Assembly (NCBI RefSeq): GCF_026242055.1
Contig: NZ_JAPJDL010000003.1
Span: forward strand, 258,796-322,795
Reading direction: 5' to 3'
DNA from: Lentzea sp. NEAU-D7
Lineage (GTDB): Bacteria > Actinomycetota > Actinomycetes > Mycobacteriales > Pseudonocardiaceae
DNA length: 64,000 nucleotides
Shown here piece by piece: positions 21,694 through 62,934 of the stretch. The notes under the pieces were generated by a model. It did not search any database, had not been told where the DNA came from, and saw only the letters and a list, made by a program, of their open reading frames with translations. How positions within the stretch are numbered: position 1 is the stretch's first letter; the number at the start of each line of letters is the position of its first letter. The position numbers and the translations under genes are program-made.

Positions 21694-22284
21694 TCATTCT
21701 TCCCGCGGGGCGGGCGTGAAATCGTCGCAGCCGCGGATCAAGAAGGACACGATTGGCTCCAGCTCGTCCTCGTTCGGAGCAACGTCGGCGATCAGGCCCT
21801 GCATCAGCAGCCCGTCGACGGCCGCGAGGAACGCCCTGAAGGCGACGGGGTCCGCCGGCCGCACCACCTCCACGGCCAGGTCCAGCCACCGGCGGGCGGC
21901 GGGCTTCAGCTCGGGACGCCGGCCCGCCAGCAGGTACAGCTCGTACTCGGCGAGCGTGCGGCCGCGGTTCTCGTTGACCGCCTTCGCCAGGCTCTGCGCG
22001 ATCTCGCGGGCGCTGCCGCCGCTCGCGACGATCTTGAGCATCTCGTCGCACAGCTCTTCCGCCGACCACAGCAGGGTCGCGATCAGCAGGTCGTCGAGCG
22101 TCGCGAAGTAGTAGGTGGGTGCCGTCGTCGGCACGCCCGCCTCACGGGCGACGCTGCGGTGCGTCACGCCCGCGACGCCGTCGCGTTCGATCACGCGCAG
22201 GGTGGCCTCGACGATGGCGCGCCGTTTCTTCTCGCCGCGCGCCTTGCGGCCGTCGACCTTCTGCAACTCCGCTGTCGCGGTCAG
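21694..22284 (-). CDS. TetR-family regulator linked to an SMR exporter
   Basis: About 196 aa with the helix-turn-helix GVTHRSVAREAGVPTTAPTYYFATLDDL, as in TetR proteins that sense amphipathic drugs. The start is unusual. No ATG/GTG exists near the conserved N-terminus. The best choice is CTG 22284, which overlaps the SMR stop (CTGA) and has GGGAGGA 6 nt upstream. TTG 22266 is the alternative, without a ribosome site. It probably represses the SMR-TetR operon through the palindrome at 22636-22647. Confidence 0.82.
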   Translation of the reverse strand: MTATAELQKVDGRKARGEKKRRAIVEATLRVIERDGVAGVTHRSVAREAGVPTTAPTYYFATLDDLLIATLLWSAEELCDEMLKIVASGGSAREIAQSLAKAVNENRGRTLAEYELYLLAGRRPELKPAARRWLDLAVEVVRPADPVAFRAFLAAVDGLLMQGLIADVAPNEDELEPIVSFLIRGCDDFTPAPREE

Positions 22285-22604
22285 TGCGTCCTCCCGAGTT
22301 CGAGCGTCACCACGCCTCCGATGATCAGGACCAGTCCGATGACCATCGTGGGGTTGAGGGTTTCGCCGAGGAACTTCCAGCCGATGATCGCGACCGAGGC
22401 AACGCCGACAGCGGACCACACGGCGTAGGCGACGCCCACGGGCATACCCAACTTCAAAGCGCGCGAAAGCACGGTGAAGGCGACGGCGTAGCCGAGGACG
22501 ACGACCACGGACGGCCACAGTCGGGTGAACCCCTCGGACAGCTTCAACGAGACGGTGGCGGCGACCTCCGCCGCGATCGCCGCGGCGAGGTACAGGTACA
22601 ACAC
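22281..22604 (-). CDS. SMR-family small multidrug/guanidinium exporter
   Basis: 107 aa, four transmembrane helices. GTG start at 22604 lies 5 nt after GGAGG. Helix 1 has the essential Glu (LAAAIAAEVAATVSLKL), with AYAVWSAVG in helix 3 and LNPTMVIGLVLIIGGVV in helix 4, as in EmrE/SugE/QacE proteins. It works as an antiparallel dimer exchanging protons for cationic compounds. First gene of an SMR-TetR-hypothetical operon. Confidence 0.93.
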   Translation of the reverse strand: MLYLYLAAAIAAEVAATVSLKLSEGFTRLWPSVVVVLGYAVAFTVLSRALKLGMPVGVAYAVWSAVGVASVAIIGWKFLGETLNPTMVIGLVLIIGGVVTLELGRTH

Positions 22605-22714: not shown

Positions 22715-22730
22715 GTTACTGATGAGTAAC
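22715..22730 (+). promoter_or_regulatory. Fatty-acid regulon operator upstream of etfD
   Basis: GTTACT-GATG-AGTAAC, a perfect 6+6 inverted repeat 18 bp before the etfD ATG. It shares the core TACT-N4-AGTA and an R-D-Y-G spacer with sites at 37115, 58318, 58334, 61032 and 61048, all next to beta-oxidation genes. Confidence 0.72.
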
Positions 22731-22748: not shown

Positions 22749-25010
22749 ATGACCCTCCAGCTGGTTCTCGGACTCGTCGCCGTGGCGGTGAGCGTCGTCG
22801 CCTGGGGCGTGTTCGTCGCCGCCGTGCTGAAGCAGATCAAGATCATTCGGCTCGGCCAGCCGGACGGCACCCGCATGGGCCCGTTCGTGCCGCGCATGAA
22901 GACGATGATCGTCGAGTTCGTCGCGCACACCAGAATGGCGAAGTTCCGTTCGGTGGCGCCGTGGCACTGGATGGTGATGTGGGGCTTCCTCATCGGCTCC
23001 GCGGTGCTGTTCGAGGCGTACGGCGAGGTGTTCGACCCGCGCTTCCACTGGCCGATCATCGGCACGTGGTCGGTGTGGCTGCTGCTGATCGAGCTGCTGG
23101 GCCTGGGCACGGTCGTCGGTGGTGTGGCCCTGGCGGTCATCCGCCAGCGCAACCACCCCCGCCGCGCCGACCGGGTCTCCCGTTTCCAGGGCTCCGACTT
23201 CAAGTCCGCGTACTTCGTCGAGGCCGTCGTGATCATCGAGGGCGTCGGCATCCTGCTGGTCAAGGCGTTCAAGCAGTCGAGCGGCCTGGAGGTCGCCCCG
23301 CTGTGGACGTCGTTCGTGACGCAGCCGCTCGCGCAGATCCTCCCCGCCGCGCCCATCTGGGTCTCGGTGATGGCGCTGGTCAAGCTGCTGAGCGGCATGA
23401 TCTGGCTGATCGTGGTCGGCCGGAACCTCACGATGGGCGTCGCCTGGCACCGGTTCTCGGCGTTCTTCAACATCTACTTCAAGCGCGAGGACGACGGTGG
23501 CGTCGCCCTGGGCGCGCTGAAGCCGATGATGTCCGGCGGCAAGGTCCTGGACCTCGAGGAGGCCGACCCGGACAAGGACGTGTTCGGCGTCGGCAAGGTC
23601 GAGGACTTCAGCTGGAAGGGCTGGCTCGACTTCTCCACCTGCACCGAGTGCGGCCGCTGCCAGTCGCAGTGCCCCGCGTGGAACACCGCCAAGCCGCTGT
23701 CGCCCAAGCTGCTCATCACGCAGCTGCGCGACCACGCCTACGCCAAGGCTCCGTACCTGCTGGCCGGCGGCTCGCGCGACATGGCCGGCGACGAGGTCGG
23801 CCTGACCGAGGACAAGTACGAGGACTACAAGAAGCGCCTCGAGTCCATCGACGTGCTGGCGATGGCCGAGTCGGAGCGCCCGCTGGTCGGCGGCCCGGAC
23901 GAGCTGGGCGTCATCGACCCCGAGGTGCTGTGGTCCTGCACCACCTGCGGCGCGTGCGTCGAGCAGTGCCCCGTGGACATCGAGCACGTCGACCACATCG
24001 TCGACATGCGCCGCTACCAGGTGCTGATCGAGTCGAACTTCCCGAGCGAGCTCGGCGGCATGTTCAAGAACCTGGAGAACAAGGGCAACCCGTGGGGCCA
24101 GAACGCCAAGGACCGCCTGGCGTGGACCGAGGGCCTCGAGTTCGAGGTGCCGGTGTTCGAGGGCGAGCTGGGCGACGCGGAGTACCTGTTCTGGGTCGGC
24201 TGCGCCGGCGCGTTCGAGGACCGCGCGAAGAAGACCACGCGCGCCGTCGCCGAGCTTCTGCACACGGCGGGCGTCAAGTACACGGTGCTCGGCCCGGAGG
24301 AGACCTGCACCGGTGACCCGGCCCGCCGCGCCGGCAACGAGTTCCTGTTCCAGATGCTCGCGCAGCAGAACGTCGAGGTGCTCAACTCGGTGTTCGAGGA
24401 CCGGCCCGCCGGTCAGCGCAAGATCGTCGTGACGTGTGCGCACTGCTTCAACACGCTGGCGAACGAGTACCCGCAGGTCGGTGGCACGTACGAGGTCGTG
24501 CACCACACGCAGCTGCTGAACAAGCTGGTGCGCGAACGCCGCCTGGTGCCGGTCGCGCCGGTCACCGAGGACGTCACGTACCACGACCCGTGCTACCTGG
24601 GCCGTCACAACAAGGTCTACGAGGCACCGCGTGAGCTGATCGGGGCGTCGGGCGCGAAGTTGCGCGAGATGCCGCGGCACGAGGAGCGGTCCATGTGCTG
24701 CGGCGCCGGTGGCGCTCGCATGTGGATGGAGGAGCGGATCGGCAAGCGGATCAACGTCGACCGCGTGGACGAGGCGTTGTCCACCGCGCCGTCGAAGATC
24801 GCGACGGGCTGCCCGTTCTGCCGCGTGATGCTGACCGACGGCGTGACCGCACGCCAGTCCGACGGCCTGGCGGGTGCGCACGTCGAGGTCGTGGACGTGG
24901 CTCAGATGCTGCTCGAGTCCGTGAAGCGCGGTACGGAGAAGCCGGACACGCCGACCGACGAGGTCCCGACCGGCACGCCGCTGCCGGACGAGGACAAGGC
25001 GAAGGCCTAG
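22749..25010 (+). CDS. etfD: ETF:menaquinone oxidoreductase EtfD (Fe-S/CCG-domain membrane protein)
   Basis: 753 aa. The N-terminal membrane part (about residues 1-260, 5-6 helices, with His-containing segments such as APWHWMVMWGF and VAWHRFSAF) suits a haem/quinone module. It is followed by two 4Fe-4S motifs, CTECGRCQSQCP (from C298) and CTTCGACVEQCP (from C397), and two CCG domains (TCAHCFNTLANEYP; MCCGAGGARMW; ATGCPFC). The layout equals Mycobacterium tuberculosis Rv0338c/EtfD, which passes electrons from acyl-CoA dehydrogenases via ETF to menaquinone. A regulon operator lies 18 bp upstream. No etfAB in the window. Confidence 0.9.
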   Translation: MTLQLVLGLVAVAVSVVAWGVFVAAVLKQIKIIRLGQPDGTRMGPFVPRMKTMIVEFVAHTRMAKFRSVAPWHWMVMWGFLIGSAVLFEAYGEVFDPRFHWPIIGTWSVWLLLIELLGLGTVVGGVALAVIRQRNHPRRADRVSRFQGSDFKSAYFVEAVVIIEGVGILLVKAFKQSSGLEVAPLWTSFVTQPLAQILPAAPIWVSVMALVKLLSGMIWLIVVGRNLTMGVAWHRFSAFFNIYFKREDDGGVALGALKPMMSGGKVLDLEEADPDKDVFGVGKVEDFSWKGWLDFSTCTECGRCQSQCPAWNTAKPLSPKLLITQLRDHAYAKAPYLLAGGSRDMAGDEVGLTEDKYEDYKKRLESIDVLAMAESERPLVGGPDELGVIDPEVLWSCTTCGACVEQCPVDIEHVDHIVDMRRYQVLIESNFPSELGGMFKNLENKGNPWGQNAKDRLAWTEGLEFEVPVFEGELGDAEYLFWVGCAGAFEDRAKKTTRAVAELLHTAGVKYTVLGPEETCTGDPARRAGNEFLFQMLAQQNVEVLNSVFEDRPAGQRKIVVTCAHCFNTLANEYPQVGGTYEVVHHTQLLNKLVRERRLVPVAPVTEDVTYHDPCYLGRHNKVYEAPRELIGASGAKLREMPRHEERSMCCGAGGARMWMEERIGKRINVDRVDEALSTAPSKIATGCPFCRVMLTDGVTARQSDGLAGAHVEVVDVAQMLLESVKRGTEKPDTPTDEVPTGTPLPDEDKAKA

Positions 25011-37114: not shown

Positions 37115-37128
37115 TTACTGTCGAGTAA
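37115..37128 (+). promoter_or_regulatory. Fatty-acid regulon operator upstream of fadE5-like gene
   Basis: TTACT-GTCG-AGTAA, 61 bp before the start of the acyl-CoA dehydrogenase gene. Same core TACT-N4-AGTA as the sites upstream of etfD and in the 58-61 kb lipid cluster. Confidence 0.7.
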
Positions 37129-37189
37129 TACCCTGTTGTTACCGGTCAGTAGGCGACCCCGCCGCGACCCTGAGGAGTGAGCTGACGAG

Positions 37190-39025
37190 ATGGGCCACTA
37201 CAAGAGCAACGTCCGGGATCTCGAGTTCAACCTGTTCGAGGTCTTCAACGTGCAGGACCACCTCGGCAAGGGGCCGTTCGAGCAGTCCGACGAGGACACT
37301 GCGCGCAGCGTGCTGGCCGAGGTGAAGAACCTCGCGGAGGGTGTCCTCGGGGACTCCTTCGTGGACGCCGACCGCAACCCGCCGGTGTTCGACCCGGCGA
37401 CGCACTCGGCGACCCTGCCCGAGTCGCTGAAGAAGTCGTACCAGGCGGTGTGGGACGGCGAGTGGTACCGCCTGTTCCTGCCGAACGAGCTGGGCGGTTT
37501 CGGCACCCCGCCGTCGGTCACGTGGGCCGCGTCCGAGCTGCTGCTCGGGGCGAACCCGGCCGTCTACATGTACCTGGCGGGCCCGAGCTTCGCGACGGTC
37601 GTCTACAACAACGGCACTGAGCGCGACAAGCAGTGGGCTCAGCTGATGATCGACCGCGGCTGGGGCGCCACGATGGTGCTGACCGAGCCGGACGCCGGTT
37701 CCGACGTCGGCGCCGGCCGCACCAAGGCCTTCAAGCAGGAGGACGGTTCCTGGCACATCGAGGGCGTGAAGCGGTTCATCACGTCCGCCGACCAGGACCT
37801 GACCGAGAACATCATGCACATGGTGCTCGCGCGTCCCGAGGGCGAAGGCATCGAGGCGAAGCCCGGTACCAAGGGCCTGTCGCTCTTCCTGGTGCCGAAG
37901 TTCCACTTCGACCCGGAGACCGGTGAGCTGGGCGAGCGCAACGGCGCCTTCGTCACCAACGTCGAGCACAAGATGGGCCTCAAGGCGTCCACCACGTGCG
38001 AGCTGACCTTCGGCCAGCACGGCGTGCCCGCCAAGGGCTGGCTGCTCGGCGAGGTGCACGACGGCATCGCGCAGATGTTCGACGTCATCGAGTACGCCCG
38101 CATGATGGTCGGCACCAAGGCCATCGCGACGCTGTCGACCGGCTACCTGAACGCGCTGTCCTACGCCAAGGAGCGCGTGCAGAGCGCCGACCTGACGCGC
38201 ATGACGGACAAGACCGCGCCCCGCGTCACCATCACCCACCACCCGGACGTCCGCCGCAGCCTGATGCTGCAGAAGGCGTACGCCGAGGGCCTGCGCGCCG
38301 TGTACCTGTACACCGCGACGCTGCAGGACAAGGTGATGCTCGGTGGCGACGACGCCGAGCTGGCGGCCAAGGTCAACGACCTGCTGCTGCCGATCGTCAA
38401 GGGTGTCGGCTCGGAACGCGCGTACGAGCAGCTGGCGCAGTCACTGCAGACGCTGGGCGGCTCGGGCTTCCTGCAGGAGTACCCGATCGAGCAGTACATC
38501 CGCGACGCGAAGATCGACTCGCTGTACGAGGGCACCACGGCCATCCAGTCGCTGGACTTCTTCTTCCGGAAGATCATCCGCGACAAGGGCCAGGCGCTCA
38601 CGTTCATCAACGGCGAGATCCAGTCCTTCCTCGACAACGAGGGCGGCAACGGTCGACTGAAGGAGGAGCGGGCGCTGCTCAAGCAGGGTCTCGAAGACCT
38701 GCAGGGCATGCTCGGCGCGCTGGTCGGGTTCCTGACCACCTCGCAGGAGGACGTCCGCAACCTCTACAAGGTCGGCCAGAACTCGGTCCGCCTGCTGATG
38801 ACCGCGGGTGACGTCCTCGTCGGCTGGCTGCTGCTGCGCCAGGCCGAGGTCGCGCTGGAGAAGCTCGGTGGCACGCCGTCCGCCAAGGACAAGGCGTTCT
38901 ACGAGGGCAAGATCGCGGTGGCGTCGTTCTTCGCGAAGACCGTGCTGCCGGAGCTCACCGCCCGCCGCAAGATCGCGGAGTCCACGGACAACGCGCTGAT
39001 GGACATCGACGAGAGCGTTTTCTAA
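37190..39025 (+). CDS. Acyl-CoA dehydrogenase, FadE5-like (long form)
   Basis: 611 aa. First step of beta-oxidation, FAD-dependent. Substrate/FAD loops [13 protein letters not shown] and [13 protein letters not shown] lead to the catalytic Glu in [15 protein letters not shown]. An extra C-terminal domain (about residues 460-611, [18 protein letters not shown]) typifies the FadE5 type with broad chain-length range in mycobacteria. It passes electrons to ETF and then EtfD. A regulon operator lies upstream and a strong terminator downstream, so it is monocistronic. Its mycobacterial partners (fadA2-fabG4-htdX) are encoded 20 kb away here. Confidence 0.93.
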
Positions 39026-57098: not shown

Positions 57099-58304
57099 TC
57101 ACCGTTCCAGAATCGCCGTGATCCCTTGACCTCCGGCTGCACAAATGGACACGAACCCGCGTCCACTTCCCCGCTGGTGCAACAACTTCGCCAGGGTCGC
57201 CACGATCCGGGCTCCGGTGGCGGCGAACGGGTGGCCTGCCGCGAGCGACGAGCCGTTGACGTTCAGCTTGGACCTGTCGATCTCGCCGAGCTCCTTCTCC
57301 CAGGCCTTCAGCGTGGCGAGGACCTGTGACGCGAACGCCTCGTGCACCTCGTAGAAGTCGAAGTCCTGCAGCGTGAGACCCGCCTTGTCGAGCATGCGCG
57401 GTGCGGCGTGCACGGGCGCCATGAGCAGGCCCTCGTCACCGTGCACGTAGTCGACGGCGGCGGTCTCGGCGAAGGTCAGGTACGCGAGCACGGGCAGTTT
57501 CCGCGCCGCGGCCCATTCCTCGGTGGCCAGCAGGACCGCGGAGGCGCCGTCGGAGAGCGGGGTCGAGTTGCCCGCGGTCATCGTGTCGCCGAAGACCGGC
57601 TTGAGCTTGGCGAGCTTCTCGGCGCTGCTGTCCGGGCGGAGGTTCTGGTCGCGGGTCAGGCCGAGGTAAGGCGTGACGAGGTCGTCGAAGAAGCCCTCGT
57701 CGTAGGCGCGGGCGAGGTTCTGGTGGCTGCGCGCGGTCAGCTCGTCCTGGTCCTCGCGCGTGATCTCGTACTGCGCGGCGGTGATGGCCGCGTGCTCGCC
57801 CATGGACATGCCCGTGCGCGGTTCGCCGTTGCGCGGCAGGTGCGGGACGACGTGGCTGGGACGCAACCGCGTGAGCAGGCTGATCTTGCGGGTGCGGTTG
57901 AACTCCAGCAGGAGCTTGCGGAAGTTCTCGTTCACGCCGATCGGGGCGTCGCTGGTGGTGTCGACGCCGCCCGCGATGCCCGCCTCGATCTGGCCGAGCG
58001 CGATCTTGTTGGCCACGGCGATGATCGCCTGCAGACCGGTGCCGCACGCCTGCTGGAGGTCGTACGCGGGGGTTTCCGGGCTGAGCCTGCTGCCCAGCAC
58101 CGACTCGCGGACGAGGTTGAAGTCGCGCGAGTGCTTGAGCACCGCTCCCGCGACCACCTCGCCGAGCCGCTCGCCCTGCAGGCCGAAGCGGCTGACCAGG
58201 CCGTCCAGCACCGCCGTGAACATGTCCTGGTTCGACGCGGTGGCGTACGGGCCGTTCGAGCGGGCGAACGGGATGCGGTTGCCGCCGATGATCGCTACTC
58301 GCAT
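57099..58304 (-). CDS. Acetyl-CoA acyltransferase (thiolase), FadA2-like
   Basis: 401 aa. Last step of beta-oxidation. Nucleophile Cys in QQACGTGLQAIIA, His in AGHPFAATGARIV and second Cys in SICAAGGQGITAI. GGNRIPFARSNGPY opening. Resembles mycobacterial FadA2, which neighbours FabG4, HtdX and FadE5. Divergent from the FabG4-like gene across a promoter with two TACT-N4-(A/G)GTA operators. Confidence 0.92.
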   Translation of the reverse strand: MRVAIIGGNRIPFARSNGPYATASNQDMFTAVLDGLVSRFGLQGERLGEVVAGAVLKHSRDFNLVRESVLGSRLSPETPAYDLQQACGTGLQAIIAVANKIALGQIEAGIAGGVDTTSDAPIGVNENFRKLLLEFNRTRKISLLTRLRPSHVVPHLPRNGEPRTGMSMGEHAAITAAQYEITREDQDELTARSHQNLARAYDEGFFDDLVTPYLGLTRDQNLRPDSSAEKLAKLKPVFGDTMTAGNSTPLSDGASAVLLATEEWAAARKLPVLAYLTFAETAAVDYVHGDEGLLMAPVHAAPRMLDKAGLTLQDFDFYEVHEAFASQVLATLKAWEKELGEIDRSKLNVNGSSLAAGHPFAATGARIVATLAKLLHQRGSGRGFVSICAAGGQGITAILER

Positions 58305-58317
58305 GCCGACATACTAC

Positions 58318-58331
58318 CTACTAGCGGGTAG
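58318..58331. promoter_or_regulatory. Fatty-acid regulon operator B1 (fadA/fabG4)
   Basis: CTACT-AGCG-GGTAG, 14 bp before the thiolase start; one mismatch from the core. It pairs with 58334-58347, 16 bp away. Confidence 0.68.
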
Positions 58332-58333
58332 AC

Positions 58334-58347
58334 TTACTAGCGAGTAG
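58334..58347. promoter_or_regulatory. Fatty-acid regulon operator B2 (fadA/fabG4)
   Basis: TTACT-AGCG-AGTAG, 10 bp before the FabG4-like start. Identical 16-bp spacing occurs at 61032/61048. Confidence 0.72.
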
Positions 58348-58357
58348 GTTGTGTGAC

Positions 58358-59593
58358 GTGGACAGGTACCAGAAGTTCGCAACGTCGGGGCTGGGGCGCC
58401 AGCTCGTGCGCAGGCTCGGCCTGCCGAACCCGCATCCACTGCGCCGCGACGCCGCAATGGCCACGCCGGTGCTGATCGGCGGCGCCTCCCGGCTGCCCTT
58501 TCTGAAGCAGCTGGAAACAGGCACCGCCCCGTACGGCGCGCTGGTGTTCGACGCGTCCGAGATCGCGACAGTCGCGGACCTGCGGCAGCTGCACGACTTC
58601 TTCCACCCGGCGATCACGCAGCTCGGGCCGTGCGGGCGGGTGATCGTCCTCGGGCGGTCACCGGACTCCGTGGCGCAGCGGGCTCTCGAAGGGTTCGTGC
58701 GTTCGGTCGGCAAGGAGCTGCGCCGCGGCGGCACGGCCAACCTCGTCTACGTGGCCGACGGCGCCGAAGAGGGCGTCGAGTCGACGCTGAGGTTCCTGCT
58801 GTCCGGGCGGTCCGCGTACGTGTCCGGGCAGGTCGTCCACGTGTCCGGGAACTCGGCGGCAGGAACGCTCGACGGCAAGGTCGCGCTGGTCACGGGCGCG
58901 TCGCGGGGCATCGGCGCGGCGATCGCGGCCACTCTCGCCCGCGACGGCGCGCACGTGGTGTGCCTCGACGTCCCCGCCGCCGGCGACGAGCTGTCGAAGG
59001 TCGCGAACTCCGCCGGAGGATCGGCGTTGCAGCTCGACATCACCGGCGATCCCGCGAAGCTGACCTCGTACCTGATGGAGCGGCACGGCGGCGTGGACGT
59101 CGTCGTGCACAACGCGGGCATCACGCGCGACAAGACGCTGGCGCGCATGGACTCCTCGCAGTGGGATTCGGTGCTGGAGGTCAACCTCGCGTGCCAGGAG
59201 CGGGTGAACGACGCGCTGCTGGACGGCGGCGTGCTGCGCACCGGCGGGCGGATCATCGGGGTGTCGTCGATCGCCGGCATCGCGGGCAACGTCGGCCAGA
59301 CCAACTACGCCACCTCGAAGGCCGGCGTGATCGGCATGGTGCAGACGCTCGCGCCCGTGCTGGCCGCTCGCGGGGCCACGATCAACGCCGTCGCACCCGG
59401 TTTCATCGAGACCAAGATGACCGCGGCGGTGCCGTTCGCGACGCGCGAGGTCGGGCGGCGGATGAACAGCCTGTCGCAGGGCGGGTTGCCCTCCGACGTC
59501 GCGGAGACCGTGGCGTGGTTCGCGTCGCCGGGATCCGGTGGTGTGAACGGGAACGTCGTGCGGGTGTGCGGCCAGATGCTCCTGGGGGCCTGA
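58358..59593 (+). CDS. 3-Oxoacyl-thioester reductase, FabG4-like (long form)
   Basis: 411 aa from GTG 58358. An N-terminal flavodoxin-like domain (about residues 35-165, e.g. PYGALVFDASEIATV) precedes an SDR domain: VTGASRGIGAAIAATL, VVHNAGITRDK, YATSKAG (catalytic Tyr/Lys), VAPGFIETKM. This layout is that of high-molecular-weight FabG (FabG4) of mycobacteria, NADH-dependent and acting on 3-hydroxyacyl-CoAs. TGATG overlap with the dehydratase gene. Confidence 0.9.
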   Translation: MDRYQKFATSGLGRQLVRRLGLPNPHPLRRDAAMATPVLIGGASRLPFLKQLETGTAPYGALVFDASEIATVADLRQLHDFFHPAITQLGPCGRVIVLGRSPDSVAQRALEGFVRSVGKELRRGGTANLVYVADGAEEGVESTLRFLLSGRSAYVSGQVVHVSGNSAAGTLDGKVALVTGASRGIGAAIAATLARDGAHVVCLDVPAAGDELSKVANSAGGSALQLDITGDPAKLTSYLMERHGGVDVVVHNAGITRDKTLARMDSSQWDSVLEVNLACQERVNDALLDGGVLRTGGRIIGVSSIAGIAGNVGQTNYATSKAGVIGMVQTLAPVLAARGATINAVAPGFIETKMTAAVPFATREVGRRMNSLSQGGLPSDVAETVAWFASPGSGGVNGNVVRVCGQMLLGA

Positions 59594-60354
59594 TGTTGCT
59601 GCGTGCCGCCCTGACGTCGTTCCGGCGAGGGGAAACGCTTGCCGCGCAACCGGTTTCGGCCGCGGTCGACGTGTCGCTGAAGCACCTGGCGGCCTACAAC
59701 GCGGTGTGCGGGTTCGGGTTGCGCGACGCGCTGCCGCTCACCTACCCGCACGTGCTGGGCTTTCCGCTGCAGATGAAGCTGATGTCCGGCGCCGGTTTCC
59801 CGTTCCCGCTGCCAGGCCTCGTGCACGTCGCGAACCGGATCACGCAGTCTCGTCCGCTGACGCTGGACGAGCCGCTGGAGATCACGGTGTCCGCGCGCGA
59901 CCTGCGGCCCCATCCGCAGGGCACCCAGGTCGACGTCGTCACGTCGGTTTCCGGTGTCTGGGAAGGCGTCTCGACCTACCTGCGGCGCACCGGCGGTGCT
60001 TCCGGCACGGGTGAGGAACTGCAGCGGCCGGTCGGGTCGGCCGTGTGGCGGGTGCCCGCGGACATCGGGCGGCGCTACGGCGCGGCGTCGGGCGACCGCA
60101 ACCCGATCCACCTGCACCCGCTGAGCGCCAGGTTGTTCGGCTTCAAGCGCGCGATCGCCCACGGGATGTGGACGAAGGCGCGCTGCCTCGCGGCCCTGGA
60201 GGGGCGGCTCCCCGAGGCCGTGACGGTCGCCGTCCGGTTCAAGAAGCCGCTGCTCATCCCCGGCCGCGTCGAGTTCTCGGCGGCCGAGAGCGCTACGGGC
60301 TGGGAGTTCGCCGTGTGGGGCAAGGGGCCCCACCTGGTCGGCTCAACGACGTGA
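59593..60354 (+). CDS. MaoC-like (R)-hydratase, HtdX-like
   Basis: 253 aa from ATG 59593. Double hot-dog protein; hydratase-2 motif GDRNPIHLHPLSARLFGFKRAIAHGMW with the catalytic Asp/His region in the second half. N-terminal half MLLRAALTSFRRGETLAAQPVSAAVDVS. Interconverts (R)-3-hydroxyacyl-CoA and enoyl-CoA. Coupled to the FabG4-like gene, as in the mycobacterial fabG4-htdX pair. Confidence 0.88.
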   Translation: MLLRAALTSFRRGETLAAQPVSAAVDVSLKHLAAYNAVCGFGLRDALPLTYPHVLGFPLQMKLMSGAGFPFPLPGLVHVANRITQSRPLTLDEPLEITVSARDLRPHPQGTQVDVVTSVSGVWEGVSTYLRRTGGASGTGEELQRPVGSAVWRVPADIGRRYGAASGDRNPIHLHPLSARLFGFKRAIAHGMWTKARCLAALEGRLPEAVTVAVRFKKPLLIPGRVEFSAAESATGWEFAVWGKGPHLVGSTT

Positions 60355-60981
60355 CGGCGGATGCCAGACGTTGCCGTCGACCAGGTCGCCGAAGCCCATC
60401 CAGACGAGGTTCATGAGGCGGGCCGCGACGACGCCGGCGGGTTCCTCCGGGTGGTCTAGCCACCAGTCCGCGAGCGACTCGCCGGCCCCGACCAGCGCGG
60501 CGGCCAGCGACTCGGCCTCCAGCTTGGTCGCCGGCGCCTTGGTGGACTGGGTGAGCAGCGCCGCGACCAGTGACACGGCCCGGCCGCGCATGTCCGTGAG
60601 CTCGATCGCGAACGGCCCGCCCTGCGTGGACGCCTGCCGGTGCAGCACCATCCAGCTCGCCCGGTTCTCGCCGACGAACCCGAAGAACGCCCGCAGGCCG
60701 CTCCACAGCTGGACGTCCGGCTCCTGGTCGGGCTCGACGCCCGTCGCGATGGCCTCCATCATGCGGGTGGCCTCGCGCCGGATGCACGTCGCGAACAGCT
60801 CCTCCTTCGAGCCGAGGTAGGCGTAGAGCATCGGCTTCGAAATGCCCGCGACCTCGGAGATCTCGTCCATGGAGGCCGAGTGGAAGCCGAGCCGCGAGAA
60901 CACGTCGATGGCGGCGTCCATGATCTGCCGCTCACGCACGGCGCGTGGCAAGCGCTTGGCTCGACCTTCTGTGCGCATCAT
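60343..60981 (-). CDS. TetR-family regulator, probable repressor of the fatty-acid regulon
   Basis: 212 aa. Helix-turn-helix ISEVAGISKPMLYAYLGSKEELF near residues 40-62, then an acyl-CoA-sized helical pocket domain (LWSGLRAFFGFVGENRASWMVLHRQ). It lies inside the lipid cluster. Two operators (61032, 61048) sit between it and the divergent SCP2 gene, and it overlaps the HtdX-like 3' end by 12 bp. It is the natural candidate to bind all TACT-N4-(A/G)GTA sites in the window, with acyl-CoA as ligand (inference). Mycobacterial FdmR is a precedent for a TetR repressor of beta-oxidation. Confidence 0.9.
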   Translation of the reverse strand: MMRTEGRAKRLPRAVRERQIMDAAIDVFSRLGFHSASMDEISEVAGISKPMLYAYLGSKEELFATCIRREATRMMEAIATGVEPDQEPDVQLWSGLRAFFGFVGENRASWMVLHRQASTQGGPFAIELTDMRGRAVSLVAALLTQSTKAPATKLEAESLAAALVGAGESLADWWLDHPEEPAGVVAARLMNLVWMGFGDLVDGNVWHPPSRR

Positions 60982-61031
60982 TACCCCTCGGTTCGGAGCG
61001 GCAAGATTATCCGATCGGCTTGCCGCCCTAT

Positions 61032-61045
61032 CTACTCACCAGTAG
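61032..61045. promoter_or_regulatory. Fatty-acid regulon operator C1 (tetR/SCP2)
   Basis: CTACT-CACC-AGTAG, a perfect 5+5 inverted repeat in the divergent promoter of the TetR and SCP2 genes. Confidence 0.75.
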
Positions 61046-61047
61046 TC

Positions 61048-61061
61048 TTACTCGCCAGTAG
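61048..61061. promoter_or_regulatory. Fatty-acid regulon operator C2 (tetR/SCP2)
   Basis: TTACT-CGCC-AGTAG, 16 bp from C1 and 18 bp before the SCP2 gene start. Confidence 0.75.
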
Positions 61062-61079
61062 GTACCAGGAGGTGTGTCC

Positions 61080-61709
61080 ATGACGCTCGACCTCACCACC
61101 GAGGCGATCGCGAAGCTCAGCCCGGCCGAGCTGATCAGCACGTTGCAGCAGATCTCGCCGGACGACCCGGCGCTGGCCGGGGTGAACATCGACGTCATCG
61201 CCCGCGGCATCGATCCGAAGAAGCTCGGCAAGGACGACTTCGCGGCGTTGCTGAACGCCCTGGGCGCGCTGGCCGACGGCGGCGCCGACCTCGACCTGTC
61301 GAAGATGGACCCGTCCAACTTCGCCCGCATCATCTCGCGCGCCTCGAAGGACCAGATCGAGGCCGTCGTCGCCGATCCCGCCCTGCGCACGCGCGTGCTG
61401 GACGAGGTGTTCCGCCGCATGGAGGTCCACTTCCGCGCGGACCGGGCCGGCGCGACCAAGGCCGTCGTGCACTTCCACGTGCTGGAAGACGTCTACGAGG
61501 CCATCATCGAGAACGCCGAGTGCACCATCAACAAGGGCGTGACGCGCGAGGCCCGCGCCATCGTGACGCTGACGCCCGCCGACTTCCTGAAGCTCGCGAC
61601 CGGCAACGCCTCCGCGCCCGTGCTGTTCATGACGGGCAAGCTGAAGGTGAAGGGCGACCTGGGGTTCGCGGCCGGGTTCATGAGCCTGTTCAACATCCCG
61701 AAGGCTTAG
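61080..61709 (+). CDS. SCP2 sterol-binding domain protein
   Basis: 209 aa from ATG 61080 (GGAGG 7 nt upstream). N-terminal helical part (about 1-100) and C-terminal SCP2 fold (KAVVHFHVLEDVYEAIIENAE, ARAIVTLTPADFLKLATGN, LFMTGKLKVKGDLGFA). It binds fatty acyl chains or sterols and probably serves the acyl-CoA dehydrogenase encoded 10 bp downstream. Confidence 0.85.
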   Translation: MTLDLTTEAIAKLSPAELISTLQQISPDDPALAGVNIDVIARGIDPKKLGKDDFAALLNALGALADGGADLDLSKMDPSNFARIISRASKDQIEAVVADPALRTRVLDEVFRRMEVHFRADRAGATKAVVHFHVLEDVYEAIIENAECTINKGVTREARAIVTLTPADFLKLATGNASAPVLFMTGKLKVKGDLGFAAGFMSLFNIPKA

Positions 61710-61719
61710 GAGACTTCCT

Positions 61720-62934
61720 GTGGGTGGCTTCTCGCTCGAACTGAACGAAGACCAGACCGACCTGCGCGACTGGGTGCACGGCTTCGCTCGTGACGTGATC
61801 AGGCCGGCGGCCTCCGAGTGGGACGAGCGCGAGGAGACGCCGTGGCCGGTGATCCAGGAGGCGGCGAAGATCGGCCTCTACGGCTTCGAAGCCCTCGCGA
61901 CCTGGTTCGCCGACCCCATCGGCCTCTCGCTGCCCATCGCCACCGAGGAGCTCTTCTGGGGTGACGCGGGCATCGCGCTGTCGCTGATGGGCACCGGCCT
62001 CGCCGTCGCGGGCATCTTCGCGGGCGGCGAACCGGAACAGCTCGCCGAATGGGTGCCGGAGTGCTTCGGCGACGAGTCGGACCCGAAACTGGCCGCCTTC
62101 TGCGCCTCAGAACCCCAGGCGGGCTCCGACGTGGCCGGCTACCGCACCCGCGCCCGTTACAACGAGGCCACCGACGAGTGGGTGCTGAACGGCCAGAAGG
62201 CCTGGGCCACCAACGGCGGCATCGCGAACGTGCACGTGGTCACGGCCGTGGTCGACCCCGCCCTGGGCTCCCGCGGCCAGGCCGGTTTCATCGTCCCGCC
62301 GGGAACCCCCGGCCTGTCGTCACCGGGCAAGATCAAGAAGCACGGCATGCGCGCCTCGCACACGGCCGACGTCTTCCTGGACGACGTGCGGGTGCCAGGC
62401 CGGTGCGTCCTGGGCGGCAAGGAGCGGCTGGAAGCTCGGCTCGCCCGTGCGCGCGAAGGCCTGAAGGCCGGCGGCCAGGCGGCGATGGCCACGTTCGAGA
62501 CCACGCGCCCGACCGTGGGCGCGATGGCCGTGGGCGTCGCCCGCGCCGCCTACGACTACGCGCTGGAGTACGCGAAGGACCGCGAGGCGTTCGGCCGCAA
62601 GATCATCGAGAACCAGTCGATCGCCTTCGACCTCGCGAACATGCGGATGGAGATCGACGCGTCGCGGCTGCTGGTGTGGCGGGCGGCCTGGATGGGGCGC
62701 AACAACGTCCCGTTCACCGCGGGCGAGGGGTCGATGTCGAAGCTCAAGGCGTCCGAGGTGTCGGTGTGGGCGACGGAGCGGGCGATCCACATCCTGGGTG
62801 GGGCCGGGTACACCCGTGAGCACCCCGTCGAGCGGATGCATCGCGACGCCAAGATCTTCACCATCTTCGAGGGGACTTCGGAGATCCAGCGGCTCGTGGT
62901 GTCGCGGATGATCTCCGGCATGCAGATCAAGTGA
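61720..62934 (+). CDS. Acyl-CoA dehydrogenase
   Basis: 404 aa, GTG start. FAD/substrate loops FCASEPQAGSDVAGY, WVLNGQKAWATNGG and catalytic Glu in FTIFEGTSEIQRLV. Shorter than the 37190 enzyme and of ordinary length. Electrons go to ETF and EtfD. Cotranscribed with the SCP2 gene. The 3' terminal 22 bp are repeated at 63452-63473, after a 539-bp insert. Confidence 0.94.
   Translation: MGGFSLELNEDQTDLRDWVHGFARDVIRPAASEWDEREETPWPVIQEAAKIGLYGFEALATWFADPIGLSLPIATEELFWGDAGIALSLMGTGLAVAGIFAGGEPEQLAEWVPECFGDESDPKLAAFCASEPQAGSDVAGYRTRARYNEATDEWVLNGQKAWATNGGIANVHVVTAVVDPALGSRGQAGFIVPPGTPGLSSPGKIKKHGMRASHTADVFLDDVRVPGRCVLGGKERLEARLARAREGLKAGGQAAMATFETTRPTVGAMAVGVARAAYDYALEYAKDREAFGRKIIENQSIAFDLANMRMEIDASRLLVWRAAWMGRNNVPFTAGEGSMSKLKASEVSVWATERAIHILGGAGYTREHPVERMHRDAKIFTIFEGTSEIQRLVVSRMISGMQIK
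62913..62934 (+). repeat. Direct repeat, left copy (end of acyl-CoA dehydrogenase)
   Basis: 22 bp encoding the last residues SGMQIK and stop, identical to 63452-63473. Resembles an attachment-site pair flanking integrated DNA. Confidence 0.85.

Follow-up and report, generated by a model that had tools for sequence, protein, structure and literature searches.

The window analysed here is a 64-kilobase (kb) stretch of the genome of Lentzea sp. NEAU-D7, and the subject is a short motif shared by four promoters of fatty-acid beta-oxidation genes within it, together with a TetR-family regulator encoded in the same neighbourhood. The sites carrying this motif are best read as two sets, one probably controlled by this regulator, which by sequence and synteny is an ortholog of the mycobacterial repressor FdmR, and the other most likely controlled by a different and more widespread protein. 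The genes concerned are given below, with names that go past the domain level being inferred.

22749-25010, plus strand: EtfD-like membrane Fe-S oxidoreductase (CCG and Fer4 domains; name inferred)
37190-39025, plus strand: FadE5-like acyl-CoA dehydrogenase (domain search)
57099-58304, minus strand: FadA2-like thiolase (NF006740, 718 bits against a cutoff of 539)
58349-59593, plus strand: FabG4-like 3-oxoacyl reductase (NF006110, 599 bits against a cutoff of 410)
59593-60354, plus strand: MaoC-type hydratase, HtdX-like by position (PF01575)
60343-60981, minus strand: TetR-family repressor, predicted FdmR ortholog (TetR_N, PF00440; TetR_C_46, PF21943)
61074-61709, plus strand: SCP2-family lipid-binding protein (PF02036)
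61720-62934, plus strand: acyl-CoA dehydrogenase downstream of SCP2 (domain search)

The motif proposed by a sequence-only reading of the window is TACT-N4-RGTA, which was widened here to the self-complementary core TACY-N4-RGTA. Matches to the narrower form start at 22717, 37116, 58319, 58335, 61033 and 61049, with a further one on the minus strand at 37140-37151 (TACTGACCGGTA). The window gives 12 strand-matches, against a mean of 0.13 in shuffled sequences, none of 100 shuffles reaching 12. The wider core occurs seven times in the 64 kb, every time inside one of the four promoters named by that reading (tetR/SCP2, fadA2/fabG4, etfD and fadE5). All six of the sites it had listed were thus found at the promoters it had named, their positions having been set 1-2 base pairs (bp) low and one site (37140-37151) having been missed, and the identical 16-bp spacing it had claimed for the tandem sites proved exact (58319/58335 and 61033/61049). 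In the 9,315,492-base genome, the TACT-N4-RGTA tandem with 16-bp spacing is found in two places only, both of them in the window, and the backward control yielded none. The single motif is found 46 times on the forward and 50 times on the reverse strand, compared with 19 and 15 in the reversed control. Hence the tandem is specific, whereas the single core is only two to three times above the control.

The sites were divided into two classes according to the bases around the core. In class A, at tetR/SCP2 and fadA2/fabG4, the core is flanked by C[C/T] (C[C/T]...[A/G]G); in class B, at etfD and fadE5, the flanks are GT...AY, which gives GTTACY-N4-RGTAAY. The class A rows below rest on motif search and comparison with relatives, and the class B rows on motif search.

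22717-22728, plus strand: class B site GTTACTGATGAGTAAC, upstream of etfD
37116-37127, plus strand: class B site GTTACTGTCGAGTAAT, upstream of the fadE5-like gene
37140-37151, minus strand: second class B site at the fadE5-like gene, 24 bp away, absent from the sequence-only list
58319-58330, plus strand: class A operator half TACTAGCGGGTA, fadA2/fabG4 intergenic region
58335-58346, plus strand: class A operator half TACTAGCGAGTA, fadA2/fabG4 intergenic region
61033-61044, plus strand: class A operator half TACTCACCAGTA, TetR/SCP2 intergenic region
61049-61060, plus strand: class A operator half TACTCGCCAGTA, 16 bp from the preceding half

The protein encoded at 60343-60981 scores 48.3 bits for TetR_N and 91.9 bits for TetR_C_46, both over the cutoff, and is clearly the best of the four TetR_C_46 matches in the window's genome. 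It is 43% identical to a protein from the mycobacterial family (L088), with a near-identical recognition helix, and the helix SMDEISEVAGISKPMLYAYLGSKEELF is conserved. Its AlphaFold2 model has a pLDDT of 84. The closest solved chain is 3f1b (E-value 1.7e-49, 172 bits), from Rhodococcus, followed by the FasR chains 6o6p (71 bits) and 6o6n (67 bits). On the FasR model NF053731 the protein reaches 92.4 bits against a cutoff of 330, and it is therefore not FasR.

Synteny points in the same direction. MaoC, FabG4 and thiolase genes lie near the TetR gene in 16 of the 20 regions fetched, across mycobacterial and other families, and the remaining four (L090, L097, L098 and L106) show part of this set within the fetched stretch; among loci L088-L096 the set is present in eight of nine, the ninth locus being cut. 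In a second set of 80 TetR loci, mostly from Mycobacterium or close kin, 68 have all three genes nearby, and 51 of these 68 also have a FadE5 match. The gene order at the mycobacterial locus is Rv0241c-Rv0244c. FdmR (Rv0238) is said to be a TetR repressor of mycobacterial fatty-acid catabolism, described by Dong and colleagues in 2021. By sequence and by synteny with htdX-fabG4-fadA2, gene 60343-60981 is an FdmR ortholog, so the comparison with FdmR drawn in the sequence-only reading is borne out and is better worded as orthology. The accessible part of a 2025 paper, PMC12403877, describes Rv0238 as FdmR, a repressor responsive to long-chain acyl-CoA, and from this orthology the window's TetR is likewise expected to be released by long-chain acyl-CoA.

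A TetR match at an E-value of at most 0.001 was found in all 200 sampled genomes of the family, which were grouped by hand according to the E-value of this match: 160 at 1e-60 or below, 16 between 1e-60 and 1e-35, and 24 weaker. The last 24, having the weakest TetR match, are referred to as the genomes without an FdmR ortholog, G042 being treated as ambiguous given its 65-bit TetR_C_46 gene. Across the order, an E-value of at most 1e-40 is reached in 112 of 249 genomes, with one match listed per matching genome.

Upstream of the TetR gene, a class A 16-bp tandem of TACY-N4-RGTA is present in 26 of 30 loci, of which one is the window's own and the other 25 belong to the 29 relatives. Among the four loci lacking it, the spacing is 15 bp in two, and the other two have a lone TACT-N4-RGTA site. 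The core was found at the fabG4/fadA2 promoter in all 22 scored ortholog-bearing genomes, and at the fabG4 promoter in all 69 scorable loci of the 80 mostly mycobacterial ones, where 59 of 77 sites are identical (CTTACTCTGGAGTAAG). In that set the scorable promoters number 32 for tetR, 69 for fabG4 and 42 for fadE5, the rest being weak, low-identity, missing or cut, and a partial FabG4 (L230, G034) was left out of the fabG4 tables. The exact AGTA tandem occurs in 54 of the 200 family genomes, with none in the control, and all 54 belong to the group of 160, with none among the 16 intermediate or the 24 weakest genomes. The earlier remark that the TetR gene lies inside the cluster is upheld, with conserved tandem operators at the regulator's own promoter and at fadA2/fabG4. 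The spacer R-D-Y-G, proposed along with the motif, fits the six window sites by eye, yet is not conserved, as spacers in relatives drift to CATG, GGCC or TGCA; it was consequently rejected as a specificity rule. A literature search on the motif strings returned nothing related, only LysX in Desulfovibrio, although subscription papers were mostly out of reach and, for mycobacteria, the class A motif may already have been published.

Two further occurrences were observed. In two genera (g2 and g12) a third class A 16-bp tandem lies upstream of two adjacent acyl-CoA dehydrogenase genes (L447-L450; domains confirmed in L447). The window's genome also has an acyl-CoA ligase gene (L114), closest to the FadD2 and FadD12 models and below their curated cutoffs, with a perfect single palindrome, CCTACTCGCAAGTAGG, upstream of it.

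Class B sites have a different distribution. In relatives, the two sites at fadE5 are 23-27 bp apart, compared with 16 bp for class A. Among the 80 mostly mycobacterial loci the core is present at all 42 scorable fadE5 promoters, mostly with GT flanks: 69 of 73 fadE5 sites are GT-flanked (41 being identical, GTTACTGGTGGGTAAC), against none of 77 fabG4 sites. The pattern GTTACYNNNNRGTAAY occurs at four places in the window's genome, with none in the control: at fadE5, at etfD, at a FadA-type thiolase gene (L110), where the site and the predicted end of the preceding gene overlap, and at a crotonyl-CoA carboxylase/reductase (ccr) gene (L115, 607 bits against a cutoff of 379). In 11 other genomes it lies at fadA orthologs (five genomes), ccr orthologs (three) and ETF beta-subunit-type genes (three, PF01012), as well as at etfD, fadE5, and genes for a 3-hydroxybutyryl-CoA dehydrogenase, an acyl-CoA dehydrogenase, a thioesterase-type protein and an F420 oxidoreductase. 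It is also found at genes with no evident link, such as those for a solute-binding protein and a GMC oxidoreductase; this tally leaves out L241, L244, L252, L255, L269, L270 and L271, for which there is no family or no scan. Recurrence at ccr orthologs would tie the ethylmalonyl-CoA route to this beta-oxidation motif. The three ccr loci are L263, L268 and L272, and an SPW-repeat gene lies nearby in two of them. The window's FadE5-like protein was matched at an E-value of at most 1e-100 in 29 of 30 genomes searched, and its EtfD-like protein is 54% identical to a homolog in G302, a genome of the mycobacterial family.

The etfD gene diverges from a TetR-like gene (21694-22266) and a gene for a small multidrug-type membrane protein (22281-22604), both named by eye. 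The class B site at 22717 sits in the gap common to them and may act on these genes too. In two genera DUF4442 genes with class B sites were seen (L266, L256), each with a regulator gene nearby (MerR or MarR).

The separation of the two classes was assessed with one genome per genus and promoter, the tetR list comprising six genomes. A GT flank on at least one side was present in 56 of 59 fadE5/etfD sites and in none of 35 fabG4/tetR sites (Fisher, 1e-22), a split that is descriptive, and in this respect weakens the case for two sets, because the flank classes were defined on the very promoter groups compared. In the 24 genomes without an ortholog, the class B pattern is present in all 24, three of which (G002, G061 and G168) also show control matches, and the exact class A tandem is present in none; overall, class B is present in 198 of 200 genomes. 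Core sites are kept in these ortholog-less genomes at five of five fadE5 and five of five etfD promoters, with GT flanks in five of five and four of five, respectively. The etfD tables leave out a split etfD (L202, G001), and the table comparing sites in ortholog-bearing and ortholog-less genomes leaves out L204 (etfD of G030, site present), L207 (a second EtfD paralog of G017, no site) and L177 (a second FadE5 paralog of G302, no site). As for fabG4, no match at an E-value of at most 1e-100 was found in four of six searched genomes without an ortholog, and of the two promoters available one has a site and one has none.

These values suggest that the six sites of the sequence-only reading are best read as two sets, due to the different flank, the spacing of the fadE5 pair and the persistence of class B without the ortholog. 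The single TetR-controlled regulon it had proposed is accordingly supported for TetR/SCP2 and fadA2/fabG4, and a shared core does not suffice to place etfD (22717) and fadE5 (37116/37140) in it. We give a probability of about 70% to the reading in which class A is under the FdmR ortholog and class B is a second, wider regulon with a different regulator. Several observations weigh against it. The etfD site of G028, a genome without the ortholog, is GCTACTCATCAGTAGG and has no GT flank, and G005, also without it, retains a single CCTACCGACGGGTAGC at fabG4. In 106 of the 160 ortholog-bearing genomes the exact AGTA tandem is absent, the operator there being degenerate, single or different, and the core is found at the tetR promoter in only nine of 32 scorable mycobacterial loci. 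The main objection is that the accessible part of PMC9262360 reports FdmR as a key regulator of fadE5, a gene at whose promoter every one of the 42 scorable mycobacterial loci has sites of the class B type; given this report, FdmR may also cross-bind at fadE5.

Under the two-regulon reading, the FdmR ortholog would bind, as dimers, a 28-bp composite, TACT-N4-AGTA-RNNY-TACT-N4-AGTA, flanked by C[C/T], and the 16-bp step (about 1.5 turns) would set two such dimers on opposite sides of the DNA helix. Its targets would be its own promoter (tetR / SCP2-fadE) and that of fadA2 / fabG4-htdX, both of them divergent, and long-chain acyl-CoA would free the repressor from the DNA, which would turn beta-oxidation on. 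Class B sites would form a conserved regulon of their own, including fadE5, etfD, fadA, ccr, ETF genes and others.

Regarding which protein reads class B, the paralogous TetR regulator FasR is the best, if tentative, candidate. FasR-type genes, recognized by their helix-turn-helix (HTH) signature, are present in six of eight genomes in which FdmR is weak or ambiguous (G002, G004, G005, G023, G043 and G050), as well as in the window's genome and in G302, and their HTH resembles FdmR's. TACY-N4-RGTA lies upstream of fasR in seven of eight loci, compared with four sites in the 74,776 bp covered at other TetR-paralog loci, and the 25-mer of the FasR-DNA crystal, as given in the accessible part of PMC7382501, can by eye be divided into two 12-mers, TACCCGTACGTA and AACTCGCCAGTA, both of which differ from the core by a single mismatch. 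However, fasR sites are mostly flanked like cTACC..GTAaGGT instead of the class B GT..AY, so FasR is put forward as a hypothetical reader. A fasR locus of the mycobacterial family (L291) lacks a site, in a genome that does carry class B, and for G028 and G042 the best matches, which alone were taken as loci, with no further search, included no FasR-type locus. The FasR-type genes of four FdmR-poor genomes and of the window's genome score 273-289 bits, below the curated 330, and PMC5541348, in the part available, ties FasR to FAS I only. A broader proposal, speculative and in our view improbable as a whole, is that class B is an ancient, order-wide beta-oxidation regulon (fadE5, etfD, ETF genes, fadA and ccr) independent of FdmR and read by FasR, which would be the actinobacterial counterpart of FadR, a single acyl-CoA sensor activating synthesis and repressing degradation, with FdmR layered on top for fewer genes via tandems.

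The FasR-type gene of the window's genome (contig C7:118508-119137; L453:4509-5216) has a TACCAGCGAGTA site upstream, which resembles those of FasR-type genes in other genera (approximately cTACCNNCGAGTAaGGT). Another TetR_C_46 paralog, beside a flavin monooxygenase gene (L124/L289, contig C2:258799), has a core site, TACTTCGCAGTA, in the intergenic gap upstream; the core thus appears to be common to several TetR paralogs, which would be told apart by their flanks and spacing. Two other candidates for class B were rejected: a MerR gene adjoins such a site in a single genome (L266) and has no match at an E-value of at most 1e-12 in the class-B-bearing genomes G302, G038, G002 and G028, and MadR found no support in a MadR paper that also mentions Rv0472c, which was searched for motif words only.

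A different account is that the FdmR ortholog reads both classes as one regulon, class B being weaker or differently tuned, and that a paralog substitutes where the ortholog is missing. The core and half-site are identical between the classes, all four promoters lie within one 40-kb neighbourhood, and the report on fadE5 cited above is as this account would have it. We nevertheless consider it unlikely, given the flank split (0/35 against 56/59), the presence of class B in 24 of 24 ortholog-less genomes with the exact class A tandem in 0 of 24, and the single core upstream of fasR and of another TetR gene, such that the core by itself identifies no regulator.

That the shared motif reflects chance or general intergenic AT-richness is highly improbable, since the tandem is unique to two promoters in the genome and its position and spacing are conserved across genera while spacers drift. 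In its favour, the single core exceeds the reversed control only two- to threefold, and 55 of the 61 own-genome sites examined fall between genes (crude gene caller), as could be expected of an AT-rich word in a GC-rich genome. Conservation speaks against chance for the tandem and for the class B promoters; chance may account for isolated single sites elsewhere. Hence counting every TACT-N4-RGTA match as a regulon member was rejected, given the control (19/15 against 46/50) and an intergenic bias with no composition control. In a rough count, own-genome sites adjoin five acyl-CoA dehydrogenase genes (fadE5, L012, L018, L119 and L123) against approximately 0.45 expected (Poisson, 1e-4), the expectation using assumed totals of about 35 such genes, 8,500 genes and 110 flanking genes seen.

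With the two-regulon reading, the FdmR family gains a concrete candidate operator from outside the mycobacteria, and it becomes apparent that, among close TetR paralogs, sharing a core motif does not by itself delimit a regulon. The class B genes (fadE5, etfD, ETF, fadA and ccr) represent the enzymes and the electron route of fat oxidation, to which no regulator is assigned in the searchable literature; a search for etfD, fadE5 and TetR together found no paper. Naming the class B regulator would tell how actinobacteria balance the making and the burning of fatty acids.

In comparison with known systems, the window's TetR is closest to FdmR, with which it shares orthologous sequence, the MaoC (htdX)-fabG4-fadA2 synteny and putative beta-oxidation targets. 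It differs in that tetR diverges from an SCP2-acyl-CoA dehydrogenase operon and appears to be autoregulated via a 16-bp tandem, whereas most scorable mycobacterial tetR promoters have no core site (core in 9/32). FasR (Rv3208), a TetR activator of fas-acpS, is a paralog with a similar HTH, and its 25-mer operator consists of half-sites of the same kind, but the window's TetR reaches 92 bits on its model, against the cutoff of 330. The chain 3f1b is the closest solved TetR-like regulator, and its entry has no attached function. Escherichia coli FadR, a member of the GntR family, activates fatty-acid synthesis and represses degradation, a logic similar to that proposed for FasR, although by a protein of a different family.

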